NCBI RefSeq assembly: GCF_002355635.1
Contig: NZ_AP017558.1
Span: forward strand, 1,364,001 to 1,428,000
Length of the DNA stretch: 64,000 nucleotides
Direction of reading: 5' to 3'
Source: Halopenitus persicus
GTDB taxonomy: Archaea > Halobacteriota > Halobacteria > Halobacteriales > Haloferacaceae
Within the stretch, counting starts at the first letter, position 1; every line of letters starts with the position of its first letter. The position numbers were made by a program, and so were the translations under genes. The notes beneath the pieces were generated by a model. That model had not been told where the DNA came from. It saw nothing but the letters and a program-made list of their open reading frames with translations, and searched no databases. Below, in pieces: positions 9,571 to 35,864 of this stretch.

Positions 9571-9639
9571 GGTCAGTCCCGGATCGCAACCACGGTCAGT
9601 CCCGGATCGCAACCACGGTCAACCCAGGACCGCGACCAC
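9571..9639. repeat. 23-base unit repeated three times across the dolichol kinase stop codon
   Basis: Copies at 9571-9593 and 9594-9616 are identical; the third, 9617-9639, matches at 18 of 23 positions and is the 3' end of the dolichol kinase gene, including its stop codon (TCA on the plus strand at 9619-9621). The gene's tail thus appears to have been duplicated twice downstream. Confidence 0.85.
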
Positions 9640-10260
9640 GGTCCAGATCCCCGTCGCGGCGAACAGCGGGATCGTGAGGTTGTCGTCGACCGGCTGGCCG
9701 CGGATCAGCGGCGGAAGCCCGTCGGCGATCGTCGCGCCGACCGCGCCGACGACCGCCGCGAGGACGCCGACGTCGATCCCGAAGGCCGGCACCGTGATCG
9801 GGACCGCCACCGCGACGCAGACGAGGAAGGTGACGACCCAGATCGCGGGGCGCTTGAATTCGTCGGCCGCATTGGTCCCGAGTGCGCCGCTCACCGGGTC
9901 GCCGAGCGCCAGCATCCACAACGTCGGGATCGCGATCGGCGGGTGAAACCAGACCACGACGCCGGTCATACTCAGCTGGTACAGGGCGTAGCCGGCGACG
10001 TTGTCACGCTCGTAGGGACGCGTCAAGGCTCGAAAGACCGCGTGATCGCGCCCGACCACGAGTCGCAGGAACTCGAGAACCGCGACGACGAGCAGGCCGG
10101 CACCCAGGAGGATCCGCGTCCCCGTCCAGTCGATCCACCCCAGCAGGTACGGGGCGACGTACAAGGCTCCCCCCGCGTGGACGAGCCGGCGCTCGAGCTC
10201 GACCCGATCGCGCCAGCCCGTCGACGTCGCGCCGGATCCGTCGGAGCTGGGGGCCGGCAT
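9619..10260 (-). CDS. Dolichol kinase-like membrane protein (SEC59/DGK1/VTE5 family)
   Basis: Integral membrane CTP-dependent lipid kinase family protein, 213 aa. Features are the early RRLVHAGGALYVAPYLLGW segment, several hydrophobic helices, the conserved WMLALGDPVSGALG motif, and the late TIADGLPPLIRGQPVDDNLTIP signature. In archaea such proteins are thought to phosphorylate dolichol or related polyprenols for lipid-linked glycan or membrane lipid metabolism. The exact substrate is inferred from family only. It ends five bases past the downstream edge of glyS (10260 against 10266), so the two may be co-transcribed. Its 3' end lies in a tandem repeat. Confidence 0.85.
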   Translation of the reverse strand: MPAPSSDGSGATSTGWRDRVELERRLVHAGGALYVAPYLLGWIDWTGTRILLGAGLLVVAVLEFLRLVVGRDHAVFRALTRPYERDNVAGYALYQLSMTGVVVWFHPPIAIPTLWMLALGDPVSGALGTNAADEFKRPAIWVVTFLVCVAVAVPITVPAFGIDVGVLAAVVGAVGATIADGLPPLIRGQPVDDNLTIPLFAATGIWTVVAVLG

Positions 10261-10265
10261 CCGCC

Positions 10266-12062
10266 TCAGGCGGCCTCGACGTCCGTCTCGACCGGATCGT
10301 GGCGGTCCAGGAGGCCCTCGAAGCCCGCCGTGCCGTCCTCGCCGAGCAGGGCAGCCAGCTCGTCGGCGAGGTCGTCGACGGAGATCCGGACCTGTCGGGC
10401 CGCGTCGCGCTCGCGGACGGTGACCGAATCGGGGCCGTCGCCCTCGAGCCCGTCGCGGTCGACGGTGACGCAGAAGGGCGTGCCGATCTCGTCCTGTCGC
10501 CGGTAGCGCCGGCCGATCGAGCCGGAGTCATCGTGTGCCACCGAGAGCCCGTGCGCGCGGAGGTCGTCGGCGAGCCGGTCGGCGAGGTCGACCAGGCGGT
10601 CGTCGTTGCTCACGAGCGGGAAGACGGCGACGTCGATCGGCGCGATCTCCGGGGGGAGCTCGAGGTAGGTGCGCTCCTCGCCGTCGATCTCGTCCACGGT
10701 GTAGGCGTGTGCCAGGATCGTCTGGACGATCCGGCCGATCCCGAACGAGGGCTCGATGACGTGCGGGATGACGTGCTCGCCCGATTCCGTCTCCGTCTCG
10801 ATCGAGAAGTTCGCGACGTCGGCCTCGACCGAGACCGTTTCGCCGTCGTCGAGCTCGACGGTCACGGTCTCGGCGTCGAAGGCGTCCGGATCACGTTCGG
10901 CGAGGGACTCGAGGGCGTCGGCGACCGCGCCGGCCCGTCCACCGAACTCGGGGCCGAGCACGGACATGTCGGGGTCGACCGTCGCCCGCTCGACCGTCCT
11001 CGGCTCGTCGTACCGCTTGAAGATCGTGAAGGAGTCGTCGGCGTGGGCGTCGTGTTTCGAGAGGTCGTAGTTGCCCCGGTCGGCGAAGCCGGCGATCTCG
11101 ATCCAGTCGCCGTCGACCTCGCTCTCGGCGTCCCAGCAGTCGGCCGCGTAGTGGGCGCGCTCGCCCGACAGGTGCTGCCGGAATCGGAACCGGTCCATGT
11201 CGACGCCGACCCGCTCGTACCACTCCTGGGCGACGCCGAGGTAGTAGCCGACCCACGCGGAGCCGATGACGCCGTCGTCGACCGCCTCGCCGACCGTGGT
11301 CTCGAGGTAGTCCCCGTCGTCGGCCGCCTGTTCGGCGGCGGGGTAGAGCCGCACCTCGACGTCGGCGACGCGGTCGATCGGCGGGTCGTCGTCCTCGGGG
11401 TCGATGAACTGCTCGAGCTCGGCCTGGGTGAACTCCCGGAGCCGCAGCAGGCCGCCCCGCGGCGAGATTTCGTTTCGGTAGGCGGGGCCGATCTGGGTGA
11501 CGCCGAACGGAAGCTGCCCGCGGGCGTACTCCTTGAGCCGCGGGAACTCCACGAAGATCCCCTGTGCGGTCTCGGGGCGAAGGTAGCCGGGCTGTGCGTC
11601 GCCGGGACCGATGTTCGTCGCGAACATCAGGTTGAAGTCCTCGACGTCCTGCCCGGCAAGCGGCGTGCCGCAGGCGGGACAGACGACGTCGTGGTCGCGG
11701 ATGAGCATCTCGACCTCCGATCCGGGCAGCGCCTCCGCGTCGGCGATCGACGTGGCGTCCTCGACGAGATGATCGGCGCGGTGGGAGACGCCACACTCGC
11801 CGCACTCGACGAGCATGTCGTCGAACCCCTCGAGGTGGCCGGAGGCCTCGAAGACCGGCTCGGGCATCACGGTCGGGGCCTCGATCTCGTGGTTCCCCTC
11901 CTTGAGCGTGAACCGGTCGCGCCAGGCGTCCTCGAGGTTTCGCTTGAGCGCTGCGCCCCGCGGACCGAAGGTGTAGAACCCGGCAGTGCCGCCGTAGGCG
12001 CCGTTGGAGCCGAAGAAGAACCCGCGGCGCTTGGCCAGCTCGACGAGCTCGCGGCCGGCCAT
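10266..12062 (-). CDS. glyS: Glycyl-tRNA synthetase (class II, archaeal/eukaryal type)
   Basis: Charges tRNA-Gly with glycine. The 598 aa protein begins ELVELAKRRGFFFGSNGAYGG, has the zinc-like Cys cluster ECGECGVSHRADH and CPACGTPL around residues 85-150, motif 2 QIGPAYRNEISPRGGLLRLR, and motif 3 FGIGRIVQTILAHAY. The C-terminal anticodon-binding domain begins IAPIDVAVFPLVSND. Length and order fit archaeal GlyRS. It lies three bases downstream of the CBS protein gene and five bases upstream of the dolichol kinase gene, suggesting one transcript. Confidence 0.95.
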   Translation of the reverse strand: MAGRELVELAKRRGFFFGSNGAYGGTAGFYTFGPRGAALKRNLEDAWRDRFTLKEGNHEIEAPTVMPEPVFEASGHLEGFDDMLVECGECGVSHRADHLVEDATSIADAEALPGSEVEMLIRDHDVVCPACGTPLAGQDVEDFNLMFATNIGPGDAQPGYLRPETAQGIFVEFPRLKEYARGQLPFGVTQIGPAYRNEISPRGGLLRLREFTQAELEQFIDPEDDDPPIDRVADVEVRLYPAAEQAADDGDYLETTVGEAVDDGVIGSAWVGYYLGVAQEWYERVGVDMDRFRFRQHLSGERAHYAADCWDAESEVDGDWIEIAGFADRGNYDLSKHDAHADDSFTIFKRYDEPRTVERATVDPDMSVLGPEFGGRAGAVADALESLAERDPDAFDAETVTVELDDGETVSVEADVANFSIETETESGEHVIPHVIEPSFGIGRIVQTILAHAYTVDEIDGEERTYLELPPEIAPIDVAVFPLVSNDDRLVDLADRLADDLRAHGLSVAHDDSGSIGRRYRRQDEIGTPFCVTVDRDGLEGDGPDSVTVRERDAARQVRISVDDLADELAALLGEDGTAGFEGLLDRHDPVETDVEAA

Positions 12063-12065
12063 CGC

Positions 12066-12914
12066 TTACAGCCCCTCCAGCAGGTCGACGTCGCGAACGA
12101 TCCCGACGAGCTCGCCGCCGCTGACCAGCGGGATCTGCTCGACGTCGTTCGAGATCATCTCGCGGGCGGTCTCCGCGGCGGTCCGGCGTCCGGAGACCGT
12201 CACGACGTCGGCCGTCATGAACTCACTCGTCGGACCGAGCGGAAGCTCGACGTTGCGCGTCGGGAGGTACCGGTTGCCGACCGCCTTGATCCCCTCCCAG
12301 GCCCAGTCGTCGTCCTGGTTGGCGAAGCTGTCGCCGGTTCCCTCCTCGCCCTCGACGACGCGGGCGACCTCGAGGACGTCGACCTCGGTGAGGATCCCAA
12401 CCATCGTCGCGTCGTCGTCGAGCACCACGGCGTACGGGACCGCCGAGAGGCCGATCTCGCGTTCGGCCACCGGGAGCGGCGTGGCGACGTGGGTGGCATT
12501 GACGTCCCGCGTCGCGAGGTCGCCGACCGCGGCGTCCCCGTCGACGTCGCCGCGGGCGATCGCTCGAACCACGTCGGTTACCGTAAGGATCCCCTCGAGC
12601 GCGTCGCCGTCGACGACCGGGATCCGGCGGGCGTTCTCGGTGACCATCACGGAAGCGGCTTCACGAATGTCGACGTCGGCGCCGGTCGTCGGGACCTCCC
12701 GCATCAGCATCGCGAGCTGGTCCTCGTCGGGGTGGTCGATCAGGTCGTCACGCGAGACCAACCCGCGGTAGACCTCGCCGTCCCCGGTTCCCTTGACGAC
12801 GGGCACCGAGGAGAAGCCGTGGTCCTGGATGTACTCGAGGACGTCGTCCCGCGTCCCGGGGATCTCGACGACCACGAGCTCCGAGCGCGGCGTCATCGCG
12901 TCAGCTACGTTCAT
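12066..12914 (-). CDS. Four-CBS-domain protein
   Basis: Cytoplasmic protein of 282 aa made of four CBS motifs (two Bateman modules): MNVADAMTPRSELVVV, then EVPTTGADVDIREAASVM, DLATRDVNATHVATPL and SEFMTADVVTVSGRRTAAE mark the repeat starts. CBS pairs bind adenine nucleotides and usually sense energy state. No fused enzyme domain is present, so the partner is unknown. It is the first gene of a tight run with glyS (3-base gap) and the dolichol kinase gene. A minus-strand TATA-like box near 12940-12948 is 26-34 bases upstream of ATG 12914. Confidence 0.85.
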   Translation of the reverse strand: MNVADAMTPRSELVVVEIPGTRDDVLEYIQDHGFSSVPVVKGTGDGEVYRGLVSRDDLIDHPDEDQLAMLMREVPTTGADVDIREAASVMVTENARRIPVVDGDALEGILTVTDVVRAIARGDVDGDAAVGDLATRDVNATHVATPLPVAEREIGLSAVPYAVVLDDDATMVGILTEVDVLEVARVVEGEEGTGDSFANQDDDWAWEGIKAVGNRYLPTRNVELPLGPTSEFMTADVVTVSGRRTAAETAREMISNDVEQIPLVSGGELVGIVRDVDLLEGL

Positions 12915-13192
12915 AGGGCGCCTTTCGCCACCGGACCTCTTGTATACTGCGAAGGGCTCCCGTCAGGAGATCCCACACCGACCGTTCGATCAGGGAGTCG
13001 GCGTGGTTCGACCGATACCGACCTCACCGACCGGAATCAGGTTCGATACCGCCGTTCAAATCGACACAAACGTCGATGTACGCCCACTTCAGAAGGCGAT
13101 AGATCGTCGTTTGTCCAGCACGATCGTGTATAACACCGGGTTCGTGGATTCAGTCCGATGAGTTTATATGTGAGTGCGAACTGATGTCAATC

Positions 13193-13417
13193 ATGTCACG
13201 GAGTTCCACTCCCTGGGACGAGCCGGACACCGAACCACGCGACCCGCCGCTGCCGCAGGCACGGGACGCGCTCGAACCGGTGTCGTCGCCGGACGTAATG
13301 GCGTCGGTGGACGCCACGCCGTCCCGGTCGGAGTTCGTCATCGCGGACGTCTCCCGCGAGGACGCGTGGATGGCGGTCGAGGAGACCGACGCCCCGGTCC
13401 TCGAGGAGTGGTGCTGA
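13193..13417 (+). CDS. Small haloarchaeal protein (DUF7556-like)
   Basis: 74 aa protein starting MSRSSTPWDEPDTEP and ending EETDAPVLEEWC. The pattern VMASVDATPSRSEFVIADVSREDAWMAV is like small uncharacterised haloarchaeal proteins that end with a short acidic, Trp-containing stretch. I chose ATG 13193 over ATG 13184 because a TTTATA box at 13163-13168 puts a leaderless start near 13192. It has no signal or membrane segment. Function unknown. Confidence 0.65.
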   Translation: MSRSSTPWDEPDTEPRDPPLPQARDALEPVSSPDVMASVDATPSRSEFVIADVSREDAWMAVEETDAPVLEEWC

Positions 13418-13466
13418 GGCCCCGATAGCGACACGCCGATTCCGCCGACGTCCCCGCCCGACCTCC

Positions 13467-14399
13467 TCAGAGACCGCCGGCGCCGCCCCCGACGTCGTCC
13501 GCCGGCCGTAGTCCCCGATCGCGCTCCCAGGCCCGGAGCAGCGCCGCCAGCGTCCGGCAGGTCGGCGTCTCGACGCCGTGGGTCTCCCCGCGGTCGATCG
13601 CGGCCCCGTAGATCGCGTCCACCTCGGTGCAGCGCTCGTCCGCCCGGTCCTGTCGCATCGAGGAGTGGTTCGCGGCCGTGGTCTCGGCGACGCGCTCGAC
13701 GGCCGCCACGGCGTCGCCGTTCGAGAGATCGACGCCCTCCGCACGCGCGACCGTCGCGACCTCGCAGGCTGCCTCGCGCGCGACCGCGCCCGCCGGACCC
13801 GTCGCCACCGCGGCGTTGTCGACGTCCGCCAGCGCCGTCGGGCCGTTGATCCCGGCGTTGACGGCGAGCTTTCGAAAGCGGCGCCGGGGCATGTCCGACG
13901 CCGACCCGGCGGTGACGTCCGCCTCCCGGAACGCCTCGGCGATCCGCTCGGCCTCGGGGTCCTGTCCGCCCGAGAGCGCGCCGATCGTCACCTCCCCGGT
14001 TCCGGTACATTCGACGCGACCGGAGTCGACGAGCCGCGCGCCGTAGGTGACCGTCCCCGCGAGGACGCGCGCGTCGAGGGCGGCGAGGAGCCGTTCCTCG
14101 GTGAGCCCGTTCTGGAGGGAGACCACCGTTTCGTACCGACCCGTCGCGAGCGTCCGCGCCGCAGCGTCCGTGTCGTAGGTCTTCGTCGTCACGATCGCCA
14201 CGTCGGCGCGCTCGCCCGTGCCGTCCGTGAGCGCGCGGGGATGGGTGTGCGCCTCGATGGCCCCCTCGATCCGGAGGCCGTCCTCGCGGACCCGGCGCAT
14301 GTGCGGGTCGCGGCCGACGAGCGTCACGTCGTGTGCCCGCGCGAGCAGCCCGCCGATCAGGCTTCCGAGGCTTCCGGCGCCGAAGACGAGGATCCGCAT
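13467..14399 (-). CDS. panE: 2-dehydropantoate 2-reductase
   Basis: NADPH-dependent reduction of ketopantoate to pantoate in CoA synthesis. The 310 aa protein starts with the dinucleotide motif MRILVFGAGSLGSLIGGLLA, has IVTTKTYDTDAA and VSLQNGLTEERLL typical of ApbA/PanE, and RRFRKLAVNAGINGPTAL containing the catalytic Lys and conserved Asn. ATG 14399 is preferred; the frame extends nine residues further upstream but the Rossmann motif should be at the very start. It has no close operon partner. A poly-A stretch near 14427-14433 may be its promoter. Confidence 0.9.
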   Translation of the reverse strand: MRILVFGAGSLGSLIGGLLARAHDVTLVGRDPHMRRVREDGLRIEGAIEAHTHPRALTDGTGERADVAIVTTKTYDTDAAARTLATGRYETVVSLQNGLTEERLLAALDARVLAGTVTYGARLVDSGRVECTGTGEVTIGALSGGQDPEAERIAEAFREADVTAGSASDMPRRRFRKLAVNAGINGPTALADVDNAAVATGPAGAVAREAACEVATVARAEGVDLSNGDAVAAVERVAETTAANHSSMRQDRADERCTEVDAIYGAAIDRGETHGVETPTCRTLAALLRAWERDRGLRPADDVGGGAGGL

Positions 14400-15075
14400 A
14401 CGTGCCGCTGTGCGTCCGAGGGGCAAAACGGTTGGTGGTCGCCGAAGGCGACGATCGATGGCCAGCCAACATAAACACCAATTTTAATGAATATATAAAT
14501 ATATGATAAACGATCGCCGTCTTCGTCATCGGCACGGTGCTGGCCGGAACGGATCGACGGCCCAACGTGTGGGATCGGCGTCGTCCCGGTGGCGGTGCCG
14601 ACGTGATCCGTCCGCGATCCGGTGAGACGACCGACCGTCGTTTGATTCGGTTAAAACGCCCAAAGCGCGGCTATAACATAGAGACAAGCATTCGATATAT
14701 AAACGGTCCTCGACCGGATCCACCCGGTATCCGCAGCAGATGGCAGTCGGATCACGACAGACTCGGACGCGGACGAAACCGATCTGGAGACGAGTTATTC
14801 CGATCGTTGTCATATTTTAAATGACTACTGTTCAGAAGTATATGATATACTATACTATTTGAATGGCGGCAGAATCCGATCGGAGCGCTCGAGATCGGCG
14901 AGTCCGAACGGGCATCCGGCAGGGCGGCCGACCCGCTCGGAGCACGGCCGACCCGCTCGGAGCACGGCCGACCCGCTCGGAGCACGGCCGACCCACTCGG
15001 AGCACGGCCGGCCCGCTCGGAGCACGGACGGGCCACACGTCCGTTCCCGCCAGCCGACCCACGCGTCCGCTCCCG
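14400..15075. other. 676-base AT-rich and repeat-rich intergenic region
   Basis: No convincing gene here. 14460-14515, 14690-14702 and 14810-14865 are strikingly AT-rich for this genome and contain several TATATAA-like strings, so promoters in either direction are possible. A perfect 7-base inverted repeat AGTATAT-G-ATATACT lies at 14837-14851. The right part is the tandem repeat described separately. Short open frames in it show no protein-like character. Confidence 0.5.
14927..15028. repeat. 20-base tandem repeat, five copies
   Basis: The unit GCCGACCCGCTCGGAGCACG is repeated head to tail at 14927, 14947, 14967, 14987 and 15007; the fourth copy has an A for G and the fifth a G for A. The core GACCCGCTCGG is partly self-complementary (CCGCTCGG/CCGAGCGG). 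It follows the 3' end of the DUF2848 gene. Contiguous spacing without unique spacers excludes a CRISPR. Confidence 0.9.
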
Positions 15076-15813
15076 TCAGGGAAGCTCGCAGTCGTCGAGC
15101 CAGTCGTTCAGCGAGACGTCGTACTGGTGGGAGATCCGGCGGTTCGCCGCCGGGTCGTACAGCTGCATCGCGTAGAAGTCCCCGTAGGTGACGTCCGGCC
15201 GGGCGTCGACGTCGCCGTCGGCGCCGGTCGAGACGGTGCCCGACCAGACGGCGGTGCCGGTAAGCGGCGCGGTCGTCTTCGCGTCGATCGCCTCGAGGAG
15301 CGCGTCCGGCCGCAGGAACGCGTCGAGGGTGGCTCGCTGGTAGAGCTCCCGATCGTCCCCCCGCCCGGTCCAGCAGCTGATCTCGAGGTCGTCCCAGCGG
15401 TCGCGGACGTCGTCCAGCCGCCAGACCTCGTCGGCGATCACGCTGGGGCACGTGCTGTTCGCCCGGTGGAGGTTCCGGTCCATCACGTGGTCGTCCTTGT
15501 GGTCGACGCCGACCCCGACGTAGGTCCGGTCGGCGGTCGGCAGCAGCACAAACTCCAGCTCGCCGCCGGTCGTCGCCGCGTTGACCACGATCTCGGAGTC
15601 GGTCGTCAACAGGTGCGGCGGCTTCGGAACGACCATCGGGAGCGTGTCGGGGCGGGTGACCCCGATCGTGGCCAGCTCCTCGAACATCCGGTCGACCCGG
15701 TCCGGGTCCGGGTTCCGCGTCGCCATCCCGCAGTTGGCGATCCGCCGTATGGGGACCGTCACGCCCCGGGTCGAGCCGTCCGCACGGCGGACGGTGAGGT
15801 CAAGGGTCGTCAT
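15076..15813 (-). CDS. DUF2848 family protein (first of two paralogues)
   Basis: 245 aa protein of the DUF2848 family, thought to be related to fumarylacetoacetate-hydrolase-fold proteins. Family features visible are RRIANCGMATRNPDPDRVDRMFEEL near residue 25, PPHLLTTDSEIVVNAATTGGELEFVL, and VGVGVDHKDDHVMDRNLH in the middle, then VADEVW-like IADEVWRLDDVRDRWD. Function unknown; members often lie with amidase or hydantoinase genes. The second copy at 27700-28365 is shorter and divergent. The stop codon lies in an imperfect 26-base-period duplication (15035-15053 and 15061-15079). Confidence 0.75.
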   Translation of the reverse strand: MTTLDLTVRRADGSTRGVTVPIRRIANCGMATRNPDPDRVDRMFEELATIGVTRPDTLPMVVPKPPHLLTTDSEIVVNAATTGGELEFVLLPTADRTYVGVGVDHKDDHVMDRNLHRANSTCPSVIADEVWRLDDVRDRWDDLEISCWTGRGDDRELYQRATLDAFLRPDALLEAIDAKTTAPLTGTAVWSGTVSTGADGDVDARPDVTYGDFYAMQLYDPAANRRISHQYDVSLNDWLDDCELP

Positions 15814-15918
15814 CGTCGTGGTCTCACCCGGAACACGATTAATCCTTTCGGCGACCGCGGGCTGCGTGCGAGTCGATCCACCGGCATCGTTTTGTGCGTC
15901 CGCGTTCCGCGTTTGGTA

Positions 15919-17001
15919 GTGACACCCACACTATTCTCGCCGGTCTCGATCCGGGGGGCCGACCTCCGGAACCGGGTGATGGTCTCGCCGATGTGCCAGT
16001 ACTGTGCCGCGGACGGGCTGGCCGACGACTGGCACCGGGTCCACCTCGGAACGCGCGCGGTCGGCGGCGCGGGGCTCGTGATGACCGAGGCGACCGCGGT
16101 CGAGCCCCGGGGACGCATCACGCCGTTCGACCTCGGGATCTGGTCGGCCGAGCACGCGGACGCGCTCGCGCCGATCGCGTCGTTCGTCCGCGAGCAGGGC
16201 GCAGTCCCCGGGATCCAGCTCGCGCACGCGGGGCGGAAGGCCTCCCACGCGCCGCCGCGGGAGGGGCGACACCCGATCCGGCCCGCGGACGGGGGCTGGG
16301 AGACCGTGAGCGCGTCCGGAGTCCCGTATCCCGAGGAGAACGCGGTCCCGACCCGACGGCTGAGCGAGGCCGGCATCGAGGCGATCGTCGACGCGTTCGC
16401 CGCGGCCGCACGGCGGGCTCGCGAGGCCGGCTTCGAGGTCGTCGAGATCCACGCCGCCCACGGCTACCTCCTCCACCAGTTCCTCTCGCCGGTCACGAAC
16501 CGCCGGGACGACCGATACGGCGGCGACGTCGAATCGCGGGCTCGAGTTCCGATCGCCGTCGTCGAGCGCGTCCGGGAGGTGTGGCCGGACGATGCGCCGG
16601 TGTTCGTCCGGATCTCCGCGACCGACTGGCTGCCGGACCGGACCGCCTGGACCGTGGACGACTCCGTCCGGCTCGCCGGGCGGCTCGTCGAGGCCGGCGC
16701 CGACCTCGTCGACGTCTCGGGCGGCGGGCTCCACCCGGACCAGCGGATCCCCGAGACCGGACCGGGCTATCAAGTGCCGTACGCCGAGACGATCCGGGAG
16801 GCGGGCGACCTGCCGGTGGCGACGGTCGGGAAGATCACGTCGCCGACGCACGCGGACGCGATCGTCCGGAACGGCCGGGCGGACCTCGTGGCCCTGGGTC
16901 GCGAGCTGCTTCGGAACCCGTACTGGCCGCTCGCGGCCGCCCGGGAGCTCGGCGCCGACGTCGAGTGGCCGACCCAGTACGTCCGCGCGAAGCCGCGGTG
17001 A
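15919..17001 (+). CDS. NADH:flavin oxidoreductase, old yellow enzyme family (YqjM class)
   Basis: FMN-dependent ene-reductase family enzyme, 360 aa TIM barrel. It starts VTPTLFSPVSIRGADLRNRVMVSPMCQYCA; the Cys in SPMCQY is the hallmark of the YqjM class. Further motifs are QLAHAGRKAS (substrate-binding His), VEIHAAHGYLLHQFLSP with the HxxH-like pair, NRRDDRYGG, and the late FMN phosphate site RNGRADLVALGRELLRNP. I start at GTG 15919 since no ATG fits and the upstream frame is repeat-derived. Substrate unknown. It is divergent from the DUF2848 gene and convergent with the creatininase-family gene. Confidence 0.88.
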   Translation: MTPTLFSPVSIRGADLRNRVMVSPMCQYCAADGLADDWHRVHLGTRAVGGAGLVMTEATAVEPRGRITPFDLGIWSAEHADALAPIASFVREQGAVPGIQLAHAGRKASHAPPREGRHPIRPADGGWETVSASGVPYPEENAVPTRRLSEAGIEAIVDAFAAAARRAREAGFEVVEIHAAHGYLLHQFLSPVTNRRDDRYGGDVESRARVPIAVVERVREVWPDDAPVFVRISATDWLPDRTAWTVDDSVRLAGRLVEAGADLVDVSGGGLHPDQRIPETGPGYQVPYAETIREAGDLPVATVGKITSPTHADAIVRNGRADLVALGRELLRNPYWPLAAARELGADVEWPTQYVRAKPR

Positions 17002-17060
17002 CGGCCGGGGGTCGCGGCGTCACGCCACCGCGGCCGGCGGCAGTGCACCGGCGGTCGGAA

Positions 17061-17095
17061 GCCGCCTCAATACCGCGGCCGGAGCCGCCTCAATA
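17061..17095. repeat. 23-base-period duplication at the creatininase-family stop codon
   Basis: GCCGCCTCAATA occurs at 17061-17072 and 17084-17095, exactly 23 bases apart; the second contains the gene's stop codon (TCA, 17090-17092). Confidence 0.7.
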
Positions 17096-17914: not shown

Positions 17915-17987
17915 ACGTCACCATCCCGCTCAGCGTGTAAAAAGATGCCGGGGGATTCGACGGGAAACGTGGGGGAGGGGACGAGCG

Positions 17988-18950: not shown

Positions 18951-19222
18951 CCGGAACTCCCGTCGGTGGTGCTGACGTGAATGGACATGGCGGTTCGGAT
19001 CACTCCGTTGGAACGACCCGTACTCTCGTACCATCCATAATAACGTTTGTGGCGGCGCGCGGGTCGCGTGGAGTGCGCGACCCGGCGGCGACGACGGCCG
19101 CGGCGGCGGGCCGCGGCCGCCGTCCTCCGGCGCGGCGCGTTTCACGTCGAGAAACCCGATTCGAGCGGCACGGTCGGGAGCGGAGCCCAGGACGGGACGG
19201 CGATCGTGCGTGGTCGGGTGAC

Positions 19223-19260
19223 CCGACTGAATTACAACCATAAATTTGTAATTCAGTCGG
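19223..19260. repeat. Perfect 15-base inverted repeat with 8-base spacer
   Basis: CCGACTGAATTACAA at 19223-19237 and its exact reverse complement TTGTAATTCAGTCGG at 19246-19260 around CCATAAAT. It could be a regulator site for the gene starting at 18950, a transcript hairpin, or a small mobile-element remnant. Confidence 0.85.
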
Positions 19261-19317
19261 CCGCGATCGGCGGCCCATCGAACGTCCATTCGTTTCATCC
19301 GATGAAACTGACGTCGG

Positions 19318-19392
19318 CAGTGGCGGATGAAACGACCACCGACAGTGGCGGATGAAACGACCACCGACAGTGGCGGATGAAACGACCTCCGG
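19318..19392. repeat. 25-base direct repeat, three copies, carrying GATGAAACGACC
   Basis: Copies at 19318-19342 and 19343-19367 are identical; the third, 19368-19392, diverges at the end. Each contains GGATGAAACGACC, and the half-site GATGAAAC also forms the near-palindrome at 19291-19307, giving at least four GATGAAAC sites in 100 bases. Confidence 0.85.
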
Positions 19393-19469
19393 CGTGGAAA
19401 TCGCCGGGACGAACGCCGACATCCGCGTCGTCGCTCGTGGCTCGTTTCGTGGCCGCAAACGCCGGCACG

Positions 19470-20720
19470 CTACTGGGTCGGCGCGTCGACGGACACCCCC
19501 AACGTTTCGGCGAGCGCATCGAGCCGTGGCTCGACGCGCGGGGGCTGGCCGACGACGTCGGTGAGAGCGTCGGGCCACTTGACTCCCGCACCCGTCGCCA
19601 CGCAGACCACGGTGTCTCCGGGGCCGACGACCCCGTCGCCGACGGCGCGGTCGACCGCGGCGGGCGCGAGCGCGCTCGCCGGCTCCGGGACGACGCCCGC
19701 GAGGGCGGCCGCACGCATCGCCGCTTGAACGGCGGCCTCGTCGATCCCGTAGGCGGTGCCGTCGGATTCGCGTATCGCGCGAAGCGCGTGGTCGCCGGCG
19801 GAGTCGCCGCTCGCGGAGACGCTACTCGGCATCGGTCCGGGGGCCTCCCCCACGGTGTCGTGGCCCTCCTCGACGGCGGTCACGAGCGACGGCCGCTCGG
19901 CCGGCTGCACGCCGACCATTCTCGGGGTCCGGTCGATGACGCCCAGGTCCCGGAGCTCGCGGAACCCCTTCCAGGTCCCGTAGAGACCGTCCCCGGACCC
20001 GACCGCCGCAACGACGACGTCGGGCGGGGTTTCGAGCGCCTCGACGAGCTCGAAGGCGATCGTCTTGTACGCCTCGTTCCCGTACGGCTGGCTGACGTAC
20101 TCCTTCGAGACGCTGACGGTCGGATACCAGCCGCGTTTCGCGAGGGACCGCAACAGCGGGCGCCGCTCCTCGTAGTCGGTCACCGCCGCCTTCGCGCCGT
20201 ACGCGCGGATCTGGGCACGGATCGGTCGTTCGGTTTCCGGCGGGATGAGGACGAGCACCTCCTCGGCCCCGGCCAACCGGGCGTAGGCCGCGGTGCTGGC
20301 GCCGTGGTTGCCGGTGCTCGAGGTCGCCACGTGGGTCCGGCCTTCCCCCGCGACCGCGTTCGAGAGCAACAGCGAGTTGAGTCGGTCCTTGAACGACCAG
20401 GTCGGATTGCCGGTCTCGTTCTTCAACAGGACGGTCGCGTCGCCGCCGGCGTCGGGGAGTTCGACCAGCGGGGTCCACCCCTCGCCCATCGTCACGGGCT
20501 CGGCCGCACGCAGCGGCAGGAGCTCGCGATACCGCCACATGTCCGACCGATGACTGCGGTCGGTCCCGAACGGCAGCGCCGACGCGTCGACAGTCGCGAG
20601 GTCGACGACTGCCTCGAGCCGACCCGCCTCCCCGTCCGATCGGCAGTCGGGGCAGCCGCGCGGGAACAGCCCGGGGTCGAACGTCCGCTCGCACCGCTGA
20701 CACTGTAGGACGTGATCCAT
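19470..20720 (-). CDS. PLP-dependent threonine-synthase-like enzyme with N-terminal zinc ribbon
   Basis: Fold-type II PLP enzyme, 416 aa. An N-terminal CQRC...CPDC zinc ribbon precedes the catalytic domain with NETGNPTWSFKDR (PLP Lys) and STGNHGASTAAYARLAG. The Gly-rich AVGSGDGLYG phosphate loop follows. It resembles threonine synthase, but a more typical ThrC is at 50616-51899, so this copy may act on another phosphorylated or amino-acid substrate (cysteate synthase-like enzymes belong here). Start ATG 20720 follows a minus-strand ATATTTAT box at 20742-20753. Confidence 0.8.
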   Translation of the reverse strand: MDHVLQCQRCERTFDPGLFPRGCPDCRSDGEAGRLEAVVDLATVDASALPFGTDRSHRSDMWRYRELLPLRAAEPVTMGEGWTPLVELPDAGGDATVLLKNETGNPTWSFKDRLNSLLLSNAVAGEGRTHVATSSTGNHGASTAAYARLAGAEEVLVLIPPETERPIRAQIRAYGAKAAVTDYEERRPLLRSLAKRGWYPTVSVSKEYVSQPYGNEAYKTIAFELVEALETPPDVVVAAVGSGDGLYGTWKGFRELRDLGVIDRTPRMVGVQPAERPSLVTAVEEGHDTVGEAPGPMPSSVSASGDSAGDHALRAIRESDGTAYGIDEAAVQAAMRAAALAGVVPEPASALAPAAVDRAVGDGVVGPGDTVVCVATGAGVKWPDALTDVVGQPPRVEPRLDALAETLGVSVDAPTQ

Positions 20721-20817
20721 ACGCACGGATGCCGGCTCCAACGATAAATATATGTAGGCCGATCCTCGGCACCGATCCGACCCGAGCGTTTATGTGTGCG
20801 ACCGACAACCGTGTCCC

Positions 20818-21972
20818 ATGCCAGCGGACCGTATGTCCGCGATCCCGTTCTCCGGGATCCGGAAGATATTCGAGGAGTGTGACCGGCTCGAGGCCGCGGG
20901 CGAGGACGTCGTCCACCTCGAGATCGGACGGCCGGACTTCGACACGCCCGAGCCCATAAAGGACGCCGGAAAGGACGCGCTCGACCGGGGCGAGGTCCAT
21001 TACACGTCGAACTACGGCATCGAGCCGCTGCGGCGGGGGATCGCGGAGAAGCTCGCGACGGATAACGGGTTACAGTACGATCCGGACGGGGGGATCATCG
21101 TGACCTCGGGCGCCACCGAGGCCGTGTTCTGCACCGTCGTCGCGCTCGTCGGTCCCGGGGACGAGGTGCTGGTTCCGGACCCGAGCTGGACCTACCGGCC
21201 GTCGATCGAGACAGCCGGGGCCACGCGGGTTCCGTACCCCGTCTCGCCCGAGGAGGGGTTCCAGCCCGACGTGGAGGCGCTCGCGGAGCGCGCGTCGGAC
21301 GACACCGAACTGCTCATCGTGAACACTCCGCACAATCCGACCGGCGGAATGCTCGACGCGGACCACGCCGCGGCGATCCGCGACGTCGCGGTCGAACACG
21401 ACCTCACCGTGCTGTCCGACGAGATCTACGAGAAGATACGCTACGACCGTGACCACGTGAGCCTCGGCGCCCTCGATGGAATGTACGACCGGACGGTGAC
21501 GGTGAACGGCTTCTCGAAGGCGTACTCGATGACCGGGTGGCGGCTGGGCTATCTGGCCGCGCCCGAGTCGCTCGTCGACCCGATCATTCGGCTCCGCCAG
21601 TATACGACGACGTGTGCGCCCTCGATCGCACAGCACGCCGGGGTTCGCGCGCTCGAGGGGACCCTCGAGGCGCCGATGGTGGAGGCGTTCGAACGACGGC
21701 GCGACCTGGTCGCCGACCGGATCGCCGACGTTCCCGGGATGACCTGTCCGACGCCGAGCGGCGCCTTCTACGCGTTCCCGACGGTCCCGGAGGGCGTCGA
21801 CGACGAGACCGAGTTCGTCTACTCCCTGCTCCGGGAGGCGGGGGTGGCGCTCGTTCCCGGGACCGTGTTCGGCGAGACCGGGGCAGGACGGGTCAGGATC
21901 GCGTACTCGAACTCCGCGGACCGGATCGACGAGGCGTTCGACCGGATCGAAGCCTGGCTCGCGGCGCGGTGA
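20818..21972 (+). CDS. Class I/II aminotransferase (AspC/PatA-like)
   Basis: PLP-dependent aminotransferase, 384 aa. It begins MPADRMSAIPFSGIRKIFEE, then HLEIGRPDFDTPEPIKDAG, IIVTSGATEAVFC, NTPHNPTGGML, LSDEIYEKIRY (Asp/Tyr contacting PLP), and FSKAYSMTGWRLGYL with the Schiff-base Lys. The late RVRIAYSNS supplies the carboxylate-binding Arg. Substrate is probably aspartate or an aromatic acid, unproven. A GTTTATG box at 20788-20794 places a leaderless start near 20816, supporting ATG 20818. The gene's last 23 bases are imperfectly duplicated after the stop. Confidence 0.9.
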   Translation: MPADRMSAIPFSGIRKIFEECDRLEAAGEDVVHLEIGRPDFDTPEPIKDAGKDALDRGEVHYTSNYGIEPLRRGIAEKLATDNGLQYDPDGGIIVTSGATEAVFCTVVALVGPGDEVLVPDPSWTYRPSIETAGATRVPYPVSPEEGFQPDVEALAERASDDTELLIVNTPHNPTGGMLDADHAAAIRDVAVEHDLTVLSDEIYEKIRYDRDHVSLGALDGMYDRTVTVNGFSKAYSMTGWRLGYLAAPESLVDPIIRLRQYTTTCAPSIAQHAGVRALEGTLEAPMVEAFERRRDLVADRIADVPGMTCPTPSGAFYAFPTVPEGVDDETEFVYSLLREAGVALVPGTVFGETGAGRVRIAYSNSADRIDEAFDRIEAWLAAR

Positions 21973-22001
21973 GCTCCCGGCTCATCGTGCGGTGAACTCC
22001 G
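21956..22001. repeat. 23-base imperfect tandem duplication spanning the aminotransferase stop
   Basis: 21956-21978 and 21979-22001 match at 17 of 23 positions; both contain GGTGA, the first being the stop codon (21970-21972). Confidence 0.6.
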
Positions 22002-22062
22002 GCCACAAATCGAACGCAACGACGGGTAAACGTTTAAGTCGTGTGGGTAGTCAACACTGGGT

Positions 22063-23781
22063 ATGGTTTCGCCCGGGAAGCTGGAGATATTCAGACATTC
22101 GCTGAAGGGAATCGTCGAGGAGATGGGGGTCACGCTGCAACGGACGGCCTACTCGACCAACATCAAGATCCGACGGGACCACACCTGCGCCCTGTTCGAC
22201 TCGGAGCTTCGTCACATCGCACAACACGACATCGCGCCCCAACACATCGGGTCGCTCGTCTCGGTCGTACCGCGGAATATGCGCGACCGCGACGACCTCG
22301 AGCCGGGGGACGGCATCCTGATAAACGACCCGTATAAGGGTGCCGTCCATCTCCCCGACGTGATGCTCATCTGCCCGCTGTTTCACGACGGGGAGATCAT
22401 CGGCTACGCCGCGAACTCGGCCCACCACGTCGACATCGGCGGGCCGACCCCGGGCGGCATCCCGACCGACAGCACCGACCTCTACGGCGAGGGGGTGATC
22501 ATGCCGGGCGTGAAGGCCGTCGAGGACTGGGAGTACGACGAGGAGGTCCTCGGACTCATCACCCGGAACGTCCGGTCGCCGGACATGCGGGTCGGCGACT
22601 ACCGGGCCCAGCTCGGCGCCAACCGGATCGGCGAGGAGCGCTTCGGCGAGCTGTACGAGGAGTACGGATCCGACGCGCTCGCCGAGTACCTCGACGAGCT
22701 GATCGACTACACCGAGCGGCTGGTCCGGTCGAACATCCAGGAGCTCCCGGACGGCGTCTACGACGCCAGCGACTACATGGACGGCGACGGCATCAACGAC
22801 GAGGAGCTGCTGGTGACGCTGACCATCGAGATCGACGACGACGAGATGACCCTCGATTTCACCGGCACCGCCGATGAGAACGAGGGACCGCTCAACTGCA
22901 CGCCCGCGATGGCGTTCGCGGGAACGATGGCCGTGGTGATGTCCCTGCTCGGCGGCGACCTCCCGAAGAACGAGGGGTTCTACCGGCCGTTCGAGATCAT
23001 CACGCCCAAGGGGTCGATGGTCAATCCGACCGACGACCGGCCGGTCGCGGCCGGCTGGGAGATCGCCATCCGGGCCGGCGACCTCGTGACGAAGGCGATG
23101 GCCGACGTGCTCCCGGAGGAGACCATCGCGGCGACGAAGGGGATCATCTGCAACATCGCGTACGGCGGCCGGGACCCGCGGAGCGACGACGACGAGTACG
23201 TCTACTACGAGACCGTGGGCGGCGGCTACGGCGGCCGGGCGACGAAGGACGGGATGGACGGGGTGCAGGCGCACTATCAGAACACGGCGAACAGCCCGAT
23301 CGAGGAGCTGGAGACGGAGATCCCGCTGTACGTCCGACGGTACGAGTACATCCAGGATTCCGAGGGAGCCGGACGCCAGCGCGGCGGGCTCGGGATCCGG
23401 CGAGACATGGAGTTCTACGACCATCGGTCGTCGTTCACCGTGCTCTCCGACCGGACGAAGAACCAGCCGTGGGGGCTGTTCGGCGGGCACGCGGCACGCG
23501 CCGCGAAGTACGTGATCAACCCCGACGACGATCCGGAGGTCGTGAGCTCGAAGTCGACCACGAAGCTCGACCCGGACGACGTCGCCAGCGTCCAGACGCC
23601 CGGCGGCGGGGGCTACGGCGACCCGCTCGAGCGGCCGCCCGAGGAGGTCCTCGAGGACGTGGTCAACGGGAAGGTGTCCGTCGAGAAGGCCGAATCGGAG
23701 TACGGCGTCGCGGTCGACCCGGAGGAGCGGTCGGTCGACGAGGCGGCGACGCGGGAGCTCCGTGAGGAGGTGGACCGATGA
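22063..23781 (+). CDS. hyuB: Hydantoinase B / oxoprolinase beta-type subunit
   Basis: HyuB-type subunit of an ATP-dependent hydantoinase, 5-oxoprolinase or acetone-carboxylase-like complex, 572 aa. Recognisable stretches: EEMGVTLQRTAYSTNIKIRRD, PGDGILINDPYKGAVHLPD, YAANSAHHVDIGGPTPGG (conserved His pair), GADRVGE-like GANRIGEERF, and GGGGYGDPLERPPEEVLEDV at the C-terminus. It lacks an ATPase domain, which is supplied by hyuA overlapping it by four bases (ATGA). A TTTAAG box at 22031-22036 is about 27-32 bases before ATG 22063. Substrate likely a cyclic amide, inferred from family and neighbours. Confidence 0.92.
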   Translation: MVSPGKLEIFRHSLKGIVEEMGVTLQRTAYSTNIKIRRDHTCALFDSELRHIAQHDIAPQHIGSLVSVVPRNMRDRDDLEPGDGILINDPYKGAVHLPDVMLICPLFHDGEIIGYAANSAHHVDIGGPTPGGIPTDSTDLYGEGVIMPGVKAVEDWEYDEEVLGLITRNVRSPDMRVGDYRAQLGANRIGEERFGELYEEYGSDALAEYLDELIDYTERLVRSNIQELPDGVYDASDYMDGDGINDEELLVTLTIEIDDDEMTLDFTGTADENEGPLNCTPAMAFAGTMAVVMSLLGGDLPKNEGFYRPFEIITPKGSMVNPTDDRPVAAGWEIAIRAGDLVTKAMADVLPEETIAATKGIICNIAYGGRDPRSDDDEYVYYETVGGGYGGRATKDGMDGVQAHYQNTANSPIEELETEIPLYVRRYEYIQDSEGAGRQRGGLGIRRDMEFYDHRSSFTVLSDRTKNQPWGLFGGHAARAAKYVINPDDDPEVVSSKSTTKLDPDDVASVQTPGGGGYGDPLERPPEEVLEDVVNGKVSVEKAESEYGVAVDPEERSVDEAATRELREEVDR

Positions 23782-25808
23782 GCGTCCGCATCGGGGTCGA
23801 CACCGGCGGCACGTTCACCGACGTCGTGCTCTACGACGACGGGACGAACGAGATCCACACGACGAAGACCCCCTCGACGCCGCCGGACTTCGACCGGGGC
23901 GTCCTCAACGGGATCGACAAGATCCTCGAGCAGACCGACACCGACCCCGGGGACGTCTCGTTCCTCAGCCACGGGACGACCGTCGGGACGAACGCGGTGT
24001 TGGAGGGGGAGATCCCGAACCTGGGGCTCATCACGAACGAGGGGCTCCGGGACGTCCTGGAGATCGGCGACCAGACGCGGCCGGACCTGTACGACCTGCA
24101 GACGGACAAGCCGCCGGAGCTCATCCCGCGGTACCTCCGGCGGGAGGTCCCCGGCCGCGTCGACTCGCACGGCGAGGTCGTCGACGAGCTCGAGGAGGAG
24201 GCGGTCCGGACGGTCGTCGACGAGCTCGCCGGGGAGGACATCGAGTCGATCGTCGTCTCGACGCTCTTCTCGTACCTCAACCCGGCCCACGAGGAGCGGA
24301 TCGGCGAGATCATCGAGTCCCACGAGGCCGACCTCCAGTACGCGCTCTCCTCGAGCGTCCACCCCGAGATCAGGGAGTACGAGCGGACCATCACGACCGT
24401 CCTCAACGAGGCGATCAAGACGACCGTCGAGGACTACTTCGGGAAGCTGACCGAGGGGATCGAGCAGCGCGGCATCGACGTGCCGCTGAACATCATCCAC
24501 TCCGGCGGCGGGATCTTCACCGCCGAACAGGCCACCCAACGGGCGGTCCGAACGATAACGTCCGGGCCGGCCGCGGGGGCGGTCGCGACGGAGAAGGTGA
24601 GCGCCCAGGAGGGCTTCGAGAACGCGATCGGGATGGACATGGGCGGCACGAGCGCGGACGTGAGTCTCATCCGCGACGGGGAGATCGTCCGGTCCACCGA
24701 GGGCGAGATCAACGACCTCCCGATCAAGACGCCGATGATCGACATCAACACCGTCGGCGCGGGCGGCGGCTCCATCGCGTGGATCGACGAGGGCGGGATC
24801 CTGCACGTGGGCCCGAAATCCGCCGGGGCCGACCCGGGACCGATCTGTTACGGGCAGGGCGGCGAGCAGCCGACCATCACCGACGCGAACCTGCTGTTGG
24901 GCCGTCTCAACCCGGCGAACTTCCTCGAGGGAGAGATGGAGCTGATCGTCGAGGAGACGCGCGAGCGGTTCGCGGAGACGATCGCCGACCCCCTCGACCA
25001 GTCGGTCGAGGAGGCGGCGCTGTCGGTGATCGAGGTCGCGAACGCCAGCATCGCCCGGCGCGTGCACAACGTCACCGTCGAGCGTGGCGACGACCCGAGC
25101 GACTTCGCGCTCATCGGCTTCGGCGGCGCCGGACCGCTGCAGACGCCGGCCGTCGCCGAGCGGATGGATATGGAGGACGTGATCATCCCGCGAAGTCCGG
25201 GCGTCTTCTCGGCGCGCGGCATCCTCATCGCGGACGTCCGCGTCGACGAGTCACACTCCTACCGGGAGCGGCGCATCGACCCGACGATCATCGACGACCA
25301 GGTCGGGGCGCTGGCGGCCGAGACGCACGAGCGGTTCGTCCAGCAGGGGTTCACCGACGAGGAGATCCGCATCGACCGGGCGATCGACATGCGGTACGCG
25401 GGACAGTCCTACGAGCTGACGGTCCCCGTCGAGGACGACCCGATCACCGCCGAGACCATCGAGGCCGCAACCAACCGGTTCCACGAGATGCACGCCCGGC
25501 TCTACGGGCACGCGATGGAGGGCGAGGACGTCGAGGTCGTGACGCTGCGCGTCACCGGCCACGTGCCCACGGCGCCGCTCACCGACGTGCCGGAGACGAC
25601 CGCCACGGAGGCCTTACGCGACGTCAGGGACGTGTACTTCGCCGACCGCGGGTGGCTGGAGACGGACGTCTACGACCGGACCGCCCTCGCGACCGGCCGG
25701 ACGGTCGAGGGACCGGCGATCCTCGAGGAGAGCGGCGCGACCGCCATCGTCCCGCCGGATACCGAGGCGACCGTCACCGAGGCCGGGAACGTCCACATCA
25801 CGCTGTGA
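23778..25808 (+). CDS. hyuA: Hydantoinase A / oxoprolinase alpha-type subunit
   Basis: ATP-binding HyuA subunit of 676 aa. N-terminal phosphate-binding motif RIGVDTGGTFTDVVLY (residues 3-18), LSHGTTVGTNAVLEG, the HyuA core FENAIGMDMGGTSADVSLI and GAGGGSIAWIDEGG, and SAGADPGPICYG, all as expected for this family; the C-terminal acetone-carboxylase-like domain ends ATVTEAGNVHITL. It is translationally coupled to hyuB. Together they probably open a ring such as a hydantoin or oxoproline with ATP. The last 24 bases, including the stop, are duplicated right after the gene. Confidence 0.92.
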   Translation: MSVRIGVDTGGTFTDVVLYDDGTNEIHTTKTPSTPPDFDRGVLNGIDKILEQTDTDPGDVSFLSHGTTVGTNAVLEGEIPNLGLITNEGLRDVLEIGDQTRPDLYDLQTDKPPELIPRYLRREVPGRVDSHGEVVDELEEEAVRTVVDELAGEDIESIVVSTLFSYLNPAHEERIGEIIESHEADLQYALSSSVHPEIREYERTITTVLNEAIKTTVEDYFGKLTEGIEQRGIDVPLNIIHSGGGIFTAEQATQRAVRTITSGPAAGAVATEKVSAQEGFENAIGMDMGGTSADVSLIRDGEIVRSTEGEINDLPIKTPMIDINTVGAGGGSIAWIDEGGILHVGPKSAGADPGPICYGQGGEQPTITDANLLLGRLNPANFLEGEMELIVEETRERFAETIADPLDQSVEEAALSVIEVANASIARRVHNVTVERGDDPSDFALIGFGGAGPLQTPAVAERMDMEDVIIPRSPGVFSARGILIADVRVDESHSYRERRIDPTIIDDQVGALAAETHERFVQQGFTDEEIRIDRAIDMRYAGQSYELTVPVEDDPITAETIEAATNRFHEMHARLYGHAMEGEDVEVVTLRVTGHVPTAPLTDVPETTATEALRDVRDVYFADRGWLETDVYDRTALATGRTVEGPAILEESGATAIVPPDTEATVTEAGNVHITL

Positions 25809-25832
25809 GGGAACGTCCACATCACGCTGTGG
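25785..25832. repeat. 24-base tandem duplication of the hyuA 3' end
   Basis: 25785-25808 and 25809-25832 are identical except the final base, which turns the stop TGA of copy one into TGG in copy two. The unit is a multiple of three, so readthrough would repeat GNVHITL. Confidence 0.9.
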
Positions 25833-25962
25833 GACGCTGAGACGCACGGCGCCGGAGTCCCACGGCGCCGACGTTCCCGCCGACGCCGCTCCACCGACGC
25901 CGCTCCACCGACGCCGCTTCCCACACCCCAATATTTATATGAAGAACATGTATAGTCCGGGT

Positions 25963-26313
25963 ATGGACGTCGTGGAACACGACGACGCCGAGACGTACGA
26001 ACCGGACGAGGGCTGGGAGCGGCGAGCGCTTGCGGGCAGCGACCAGTTCTCCTTCGAGTGGTTCACGAAGCCGTCGGGGCACAGCTCCCCGATGCACGAC
26101 CACGAGAACGAGCAGGTCTGTCTCTGTCTCGAGGGCGAACTCACGCTCCATAGCGAGGACGGAACGTCGGTCACCCTCGAGCAGTACGACTCCGCGTTCA
26201 TCGAGTCCTGGGAGATCCACGCCGTCGAGAACACCGGCGACGGGATGGCGGTCGGGCTCGACGTCTTCGCGCCGGGCCGTTCCTTCGACTTCTGGACCGA
26301 CCGGGAGGAGTAA
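25963..26313 (+). CDS. Cupin-domain protein
   Basis: Single cupin barrel of 116 aa. Metal ligands are visible in HSSPMHDHENEQVCLCLEGEL (cupin motif 1, H-x-H and Glu) and in the later ESWEIHAVEN (motif 2 His). It may be a small-molecule isomerase/dioxygenase or sensor acting with the hydantoinase; there is no direct evidence. ATATTTATAT at 25931-25940 is 23-32 bases before ATG 25963, which I prefer to the in-frame ATGs at 25939 and 25948 for a leaderless message. Confidence 0.8.
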   Translation: MDVVEHDDAETYEPDEGWERRALAGSDQFSFEWFTKPSGHSSPMHDHENEQVCLCLEGELTLHSEDGTSVTLEQYDSAFIESWEIHAVENTGDGMAVGLDVFAPGRSFDFWTDREE

Positions 26314-26328
26314 TCGGCCGCAGCAGCG

Positions 26329-26377
26329 CCCTATTTAAAAAGCGGCCGGCCAGGGGAGCACCCTATTTAAAAGCGGC
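26329..26377. repeat. Direct repeat of CCCTATTTAAAA-type boxes
   Basis: CCCTATTTAAAAAGCGGC (26329-26346) recurs, one base shorter, at 26361-26377, 32 bases apart, in the spacer between the cupin and M20 genes. Each contains TATTTAAA, which looks like an archaeal TATA box, but neither is at a start-proximal distance from a gene. Confidence 0.7.
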
Positions 26378-26478
26378 TAGCTTCGGAAGCGCCCACGTAA
26401 AAGATCGAACCACGCGTGCACACGGAACGTGTGAACACGACCCAAATATTAATGTAGGAGAGCCGAGAACGTCGATCG

Positions 26479-27558
26479 ATGCCACGCGATCCAGCGTCGA
26501 TACTGGCGGATCTAGTCCGAATCGAGAGTCACGACACCGTCGACGAGATCCGGGACCACCTCGTCGAAACGGTCGAGAACGCACGCATCCACGAGGAGTC
26601 CGGCTGCGTGGTGGCGCGGAAGGGCCCGGAGGACGGATCGCCGCACCTCCTCCTCAACTCGCACATGGACGTCGTTCCCCCGCATCTCCCGTTCCGCGAG
26701 GAGGATGGGGTGATCCACGGCCGCGGTGCCTGCGACGCGAAGGGCTGTCTGACGACGATGATCAGCGCCTTCGAGCGCGTCGACCCGACGGACGGCCGGG
26801 TAACCCTCGTGGTCTCCCCGGACGAGGAGACCTACTCCGAGGGGTTCTACGACTTCCTGGCCCTCGAGGGCGAGGCGGGCGACCTCGCGATCAACGGGGA
26901 GCCGACGGGACTGGACGTCTGTGACGCCGCGCGCGGGAGCCTCAAGTACATCGTCGAGCTCTCGGGCAGCGCCGCCCACGCGGGCACCCGGGACAGCGGA
27001 CGGTCGGCCGTCTCGTGTGCTGCCGAGGCGGTGCAGCGCCTCGAGTCGATGGACCGGATGGAGCACCCGTACCTCGGGGAGTCGAGCCAGACCGTCTCGT
27101 GGATCGAGGGCGGCCCGGTGGGCGAGCTCACCAGCCAGGTGCCGGAGTCGGTCCGCCTGTTCGTCAACCGGTGGAGCGTCCCGCCCGAGACGCCGGCGGA
27201 GTTCCGGGAGAAGATGGAGGCGGAGCTGGCCGACCTGGAGTGTGGAGTCGACGTCCGGTATCCGTACCGGCCGAACCGGTTCCTCGAGAGCTATCGCCTC
27301 GAGGAGGGTACCGACGTCATCGCGGACCTGTCCGCGGCCATCGAGGACACGACCGGCGAGGCCCCCGAGGTGAAGCCGTTCTCGGTCGCGGCCGAGTCCT
27401 CGTTCCTCCAGCGGTATATGCCGGTCGCGGTCTTCGGCCCGGGTCGCATCGCCGACGAGGAGGGCCCGATCGCCCACTCGAACCGCGAGTATCTGGAGGT
27501 CGACGAGCTGGAAACCGCGGTCGACGTGCTGGAGCGATACCTCTCACGGACCGTGTGA
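26479..27558 (+). CDS. M20-family amidohydrolase/deacylase (ArgE/DapE-like)
   Basis: Zinc-dependent M20 peptidase family enzyme, 359 aa. Metal ligands: His in LLLNSHMDVVPPH, Asp in GRGACDAKGCLTTM (normally RGxxDMKG), Glu pair in SPDEETYSEG, and a late His in EGPIAHSNREYLEVDE. The dimerisation domain contains ELSGSAAHAGTRDSGRSA. It could be an N-acyl or N-carbamoyl amino acid hydrolase completing hydantoin breakdown; this follows from context only. AAATATTAATG at 26443-26453 serves as promoter for ATG 26479. The last codons and stop are triplicated downstream. Confidence 0.88.
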   Translation: MPRDPASILADLVRIESHDTVDEIRDHLVETVENARIHEESGCVVARKGPEDGSPHLLLNSHMDVVPPHLPFREEDGVIHGRGACDAKGCLTTMISAFERVDPTDGRVTLVVSPDEETYSEGFYDFLALEGEAGDLAINGEPTGLDVCDAARGSLKYIVELSGSAAHAGTRDSGRSAVSCAAEAVQRLESMDRMEHPYLGESSQTVSWIEGGPVGELTSQVPESVRLFVNRWSVPPETPAEFREKMEAELADLECGVDVRYPYRPNRFLESYRLEEGTDVIADLSAAIEDTTGEAPEVKPFSVAAESSFLQRYMPVAVFGPGRIADEEGPIAHSNREYLEVDELETAVDVLERYLSRTV

Positions 27559-27611
27559 GTGAAGCCCCCGACCGTGTGAGTGAAGCCCCCGACCGTGTGA
27601 GTGAAGCCCCT
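27549..27611. repeat. 21-base tandem repeat, three copies, carrying the M20 stop codon
   Basis: Units at 27549-27569, 27570-27590 and 27591-27611; only the last base of the third differs. Copy one contains the real stop TGA (27556-27558). Because the unit is 21 bases, copies two and three place two further TGA stops in the same frame. Confidence 0.92.
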
Positions 27612-35765: not shown

Positions 35766-35792
35766 CGGCGACGAGAGACCGCGGCCGGCGCC

Positions 35793-35844: not shown

Positions 35845-35864
35845 GCCCCGGCGTCCCGGACCTC

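Follow-up and report, generated by a model that had tools for sequence, protein, structure and literature searches.

Short tandem duplications at gene ends and elsewhere in the genomes of a haloarchaeal genus

Among the closest described counterparts of the repeats treated here are the tandem repeats of Borgs, which have units of about 20 nt lying over intergenic DNA and genes alike, with in-gene periods divisible by three; they are young, private to one genome, unrelated from locus to locus, flanked by partial repeats, A-rich and made of perfect copies, some of them begin in the end of an open reading frame (ORF), and they are sparse in related host genomes (PMC9879509). Yeast rad27 (FEN1) mutants acquire insertions which convert A-B-A to A-B-A-B-A via short direct repeats, with A of 1–21 bp and B of 1–91 bp; one example, with a 16-bp unit and an 8-bp repeat, lies between two genes (PMC5677150). 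A survey of prokaryotic satellites and variable-number tandem repeats (VNTR), in the part considered here, describes head-to-tail arrays whose in-gene periods are mostly multiples of three, the in-gene class being predominant in Halobacteria (PMC6749651). The present analysis concerns short tandem arrays in a 64-kb stretch of the genome of Halopenitus persicus (sample G000, contig C1, positions 1364001–1428000; "the window" in the following), in 864 kb of the same genome (3.1 Mb, 2 contigs), scanned as stretches containing 756 stop codons, and in sister species. The arrays are very probably the outcome of frequent short tandem duplication throughout the genus, combined with a filter of purifying selection.

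Duplicated gene ends and the reading-frame filter

The original prediction held that gene 3' ends, including the stop codon, had repeatedly been duplicated in tandem. Six such repeats are present in the window, with sequences as described and small shifts of coordinates, as checked by Tandem Repeats Finder (TRF) and direct comparison. Coordinates of array loci are window positions throughout.

9570..9643, minus strand: 23-nt array, 3.2 copies, 90%; spans the stop (9619–9621) of gene 9619–10260 (minus strand), previously named dolichol kinase (dolK)
15028..15079, minus strand: 26-nt imperfect duplication, 20/26; spans the DUF2848 stop (15076–15078)
17051..17095, minus strand: 23-nt duplication with a 1-nt indel, 90% by TRF; spans the creatininase stop (17090–17092)
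21956..22001, plus strand: 23-nt duplication, 17/23; spans the aminotransferase stop (21970–21972)
25785..25831, plus strand: 24-nt duplication, two copies, 23/24; spans the hydantoinase A (hyuA) stop (25806–25808)
27549..27610, plus strand: 21-nt array, 3 copies, 20–21 of 21 per copy; spans the M20 peptidase stop (27556–27558)

The names DUF2848, creatininase, aminotransferase, hydantoinase A and M20 were supported by Pfam; the frame called dolichol kinase had no Pfam match. Two copies of its array are identical, and the copy with the true stop matches at 18/23 positions.

Duplication of gene ends is well above chance, the weaker cases included. When each stop was tested for an adjacent unit of 18–30 nt with an identity of at least 74%, 47 of 756 stops were positive, compared with 1 of 756 for codon- and dinucleotide-shuffled flanks; the window stops passing were exactly the six listed. 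All six lie within 18 kb, a higher density than the genome average of about 6% of genes; this clustering may be due to chance.

Stop codons are only a part of the picture. With periods of 15–60 nt, 113 arrays touched noncoding DNA and 83 lay inside genes, whereas shuffled controls gave 1–4 coding and 0–2 noncoding arrays. The period was divisible by three in 83/83 in-gene arrays; among noncoding arrays the three period residues were split 38/42/33, with no preference for multiples of three. In-gene periods thus clearly record selection on duplications which fall everywhere. A stop was spanned by 26 arrays and a start by one. Copy numbers were mostly 2–4 (median 2.6), and the units, with 65.6% GC, were richer than the background. 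The length of about two helical turns, which had been proposed for the units, held for the mode of the period distribution, although the distribution itself is broad (12–35 nt). Similarly, the stop was always inside the unit in the six chosen cases, but the window contains five intergenic arrays off stops, and in-gene arrays as well:

14925..15027, intergenic, unstranded: 20-nt array, 5.2 copies, clear of any stop
19318..19387, intergenic, unstranded: 25-nt array, 2.8 copies, clear of any stop
25880..25918, intergenic, unstranded: 14-nt array of 2.8 copies; the hydantoinase A stop lies 72 nt upstream
35792..35845, intergenic, unstranded: 26-nt duplication; the stop of the PolD DP2 gene lies 20 nt upstream of it
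61991..62022, intergenic, unstranded: 16-nt perfect duplication
29570..29682, plus strand: 18-nt in-frame array, 6.3 copies, inside gene 29426–30889
38557..38613, minus strand: 15-nt in-frame array within gene 35865–39488, which encodes the large subunit (DP2) of DNA polymerase D
51354..51385, minus strand: 15-nt in-frame perfect duplication inside gene 50616–51899

Placement of arrays relative to stop codons

Gene ends could be specific hotspots, if replication or transcription stalled at termination structures following stops and slippage then duplicated the 3' end; the original prediction had suggested replication slippage at termination hairpins. A scan for enrichment at stops appeared at first sight to agree: if arrays were assumed to fall uniformly on the noncoding DNA as a whole, those spanning a stop exceeded expectation 2–3 fold (25 versus 8.2, or 32 versus 12–19) and start-spanning arrays were nearly absent. 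Also, the density of events was highest 0–60 nt downstream of stops (1.7–2.2 per kb) and fell to about 0.5 per kb past 80 nt, and collapsed sites folded slightly better than background (−0.336 versus −0.298 per nt). Uniform placement is too coarse as a null for stops, since it counts promoters and very long intergenic regions (IGRs) as available, and was therefore rejected; the excess arises because arrays are kept out of a stretch of about 40 nt ahead of starts, whereas their coverage peaks 20–60 nt after stops. Under a local null, with IGRs of at most 300 nt and the 50 nt before starts masked, 29 stop-spanning arrays were seen and 27.6 expected. For IGRs of at most 500 nt the ratio of observed to expected varied with the settings between 0.65 and 1.7, and when all IGRs were counted between 1.7 and 2.7. 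With the long IGRs included some excess near 3' ends may therefore persist, and a mild hotspot there is possible; most of the excess comes from long IGRs, in which genes may have been missed. The density maximum is found past the stop and not on it, and arrays extend back into the gene little beyond one unit. Divergent IGRs (0.59 arrays per kb) are as dense as convergent ones (0.59), co-directional ones being somewhat denser (0.85). Better folding could follow from the GC-rich units, as GC alone improves it, and the gene ends affected differ between species (see below). Targeting of slippage to stops or termination hairpins is therefore improbable, and the stop codon itself is not special. By the rules of the genetic code, a duplication that includes the stop codon does no harm, since translation still ends at the first stop and the protein remains the same.

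The second explanation offered originally, that selection preserves repeated 3' ends for their redundancy as stop or termination signals, can draw on the fact that each unit repeats the stop by construction and that three copies occur at some gene ends. It is very improbable, considering that no excess exists under the local null and that the duplicated state is not conserved among sisters. Since multiples of three are not favoured among the noncoding periods, the additional stops often lie out of frame. Terminators of archaea are T-tracts, and runs of T or A of at least 4 nt were found in 1.9% of units compared with 8.2% of background intergenic DNA, and on this ground the arrays were rejected as archaeal intrinsic terminators.

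The similar unit length at many loci might also suggest that the arrays stem from a dispersed element, mobile or REP-like, as its remnants or as the sites of its insertion. Only 1 pair of similar units was detected among 113 loci, versus 3 in control intergenic DNA; there is no shared unit family, and this origin can practically be dismissed.

Occurrence in the genus and turnover between sister species

The genus was represented by four samples from three species, namely G000 and its sisters G001 (about 83% nucleotide identity to G000 at the first locus, the 9570–9643 array) and G002 (about 91% at the M20 locus). Arrays amounted to 21.7 per 100 kb in the genus and 3.3 in 21 other haloarchaea (P about 1e-47), and frame-breaking arrays to 7.47 and 0.87 per 100 kb, respectively (P about 1e-19); both counts are independent of gene calls. 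The density is thus about 7 to 9 times that of related genera, and about 8.6 times for the frame-breaking class. In 150 kb of E. coli no arrays were found. At an identity cut of 0.8, duplicated stops made up 6.6, 6.2, 5.1 and 5.5% in the four genus samples, versus 0–3.1% in nine other haloarchaea, and duplicated starts 0–1.2% in the genus samples. Gene calls were poor for a stretch with 47% GC (G016), for which only the caller-independent count was used, and for a metagenome-assembled genome of Gemmatimonadota, which was excluded from the pooled comparison. The assembly of G000 consists of 2 contigs and those of the sisters of 30–40, and one style of assembly is therefore an unlikely cause of the excess. 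Searches of the open-access literature turned up no previous description of a haloarchaeal genus of this kind. The highest value among the haloarchaeal comparators, 10 arrays per 100 kb, was obtained with a member of the same family but another genus (G039, C1:500001–600000); its arrays have long periods (noncoding median 41 nt) and are possibly a milder or different case.

The sister species carried a single copy at nearly all orthologous array sites, with length differences near whole units. Alleles were compared, as had been recommended: the aminotransferase site of G002 is exactly 23 nt shorter, and no repeat is present there in the creatininase ortholog (17051–17095) or at the 25-nt array (19318–19387). 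The 9570–9643 array corresponds to two diverged copies in G002 and hence has an older and a newer step. G002 has different arrays in the intergenic region following hydantoinase A (15-nt) and at the M20 peptidase end (16-nt). Between the genes flanking the first array (window 9430–9619), G002 contains about 700 nt of extra DNA (C14, about 232825–233603), which may hold a gene.

The same gene ends were not hit in different species beyond chance. Among 93 orthologous IGRs of G000 and G002, arrays were present only in G000 in 8, only in G002 in 10, and in both, with different periods, in 3 (P = 0.18); for 76 orthologous IGRs of G000 and G001 the numbers were 9, 9 and 2 (P = 0.66). A looser scan yielded three arrays with similar period in two species; almost all arrays are private to one species. 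Hotspots common to the species were rejected for this lack of association, which also speaks against selection for repeated termination signals. From the single copies and non-shared sites in sisters it follows that the majority of arrays are of independent origin and short-lived; the proposal of a recurrent process, ongoing over time and far above chance, was thus borne out.

Since the density of arrays depends on their loss as well as on their gain, the rate of duplication could also be normal and the genus could retain arrays longer, owing to weaker intergenic selection or slower decay; the coding density of the G000 samples, about 81%, is slightly under that of most comparators. This explanation is unlikely. 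The genes, too, contain an increased number of in-frame arrays (83 per 864 kb, 17 per 154 kb and 15 per 200 kb, versus 0–6 per 100 kb in other haloarchaea), both sisters, with a coding density of 86%, have an equally raised density of arrays, and arrays turn over within the distance to G002, i.e., about 91% identity.

Possible mechanism, repair genes and relation to known systems

We infer a raised rate of duplication, rather than slower loss, and slippage as its mechanism. Segments of about 12–35 nt, which occur as tandem copies across whole genomes of the genus and far more densely than in related genera, would have been duplicated when DNA synthesis slipped, or its template realigned, from one short imperfect direct repeat to another (A-B-A to A-B-A-B-A); whole units could then be gained or lost further. 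Purifying selection then clears duplications which disrupt reading frames, start regions or promoters, and gene 3' ends, as tolerated space, look targeted. The homology step, i.e., short direct repeats at the endpoints, is moderately supported: near-perfect two-copy arrays have a partial third copy with a mean of 11 nt, versus 0.8 nt by chance, a length which is increased by decayed outer copies, and in array-free sisters the identity between the two A segments is 69% of aligned positions in noncoding and 80% in coding DNA, compared with 34% in the control, in an alignment fitted to the array species.

Both of these limits weigh against frequent duplication by slippage as the overall explanation, and so do the following points. 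Array density, as a balance of gain, loss and selection, does not alone prove a raised rate; the genes were called with a codon-usage caller made for this analysis and not taken from curated annotation. Furthermore, the genus possesses FEN1 (XPG_I match in all three genus members), MutS, NucS, RNase HII and DinB, so that the loss of one of these repair genes does not explain the pattern. For this group the Rad50 hook model gave no information.

In a comparison of 25 genomes, RNase HII scored lowest in the three genus members; in two of these species the match was split in two with extra sequence between the pieces, which suggests an insert in mid-domain. The profile matches are:

G000:C1:1047204–1047887, RNase HII
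G001:C12:23291–24031, RNase HII
G002:C13:31011–31697, RNase HII

Domain matches of DinB and MutS in the genus also span more bases than most, and the insert in RNase HII may therefore be a consequence of in-frame duplications and not their cause. The C-terminal domain of NucS in G001 (C27:46987–47406) likewise gave a match split in two, as an in-frame insert within it would produce. As a tentative and rather doubtful suggestion, the genus could be a natural tandem-duplication mutator, in which altered essential lagging-strand or ribonucleotide processing, with RNase HII as a candidate, would keep the rate of rad27-like duplications permanently raised. Such a mutator would feed new in-frame repeats into proteins and shift gene ends.

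The claim about stop codons becomes a natural experiment, in which the excess of frame-breaking arrays allows the rate to be told apart from the selection filter and from the cause. Should a heritable change in replication or repair be the cause, the genus would offer an uncommon example of a long-lived mutator that is shared by all its species and acts on a single class of mutations, as well as a source of new protein repeats. It is also a warning that repeats at stop codons may look targeted merely through the tolerance of gene ends.

The pattern is best placed with the slippage-type tandem duplications (minisatellites or VNTR), being far above shuffled controls and varying in copy number among relatives. 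As in the satellites and VNTR of the survey, in the part considered here, the arrays are head-to-tail and in frame within genes; unlike those, they have mostly 2–4 copies, more than half of them touch noncoding DNA, and a burst at genus level is not described in that part of the survey (PMC6749651). The rad27 insertions have the A-B-A to A-B-A-B-A form that is proposed here, and comparable sizes, although the genus keeps FEN1 and its pattern is an evolutionary record rather than a measured mutation spectrum. With Borg repeats (PMC9879509) the arrays share units of about 20 nt, a distribution over both intergenic DNA and genes, in-frame periods in genes, young age, restriction to single genomes, unrelated units and flanking partial copies, and in both some arrays begin within an ORF end and related genomes contain few of them; in contrast to Borg repeats, they have fewer copies, are often imperfect, are GC-rich instead of A-rich, and reside on a cellular haloarchaeal chromosome (the window is on a 2.97-Mb contig) and not on a Borg element.

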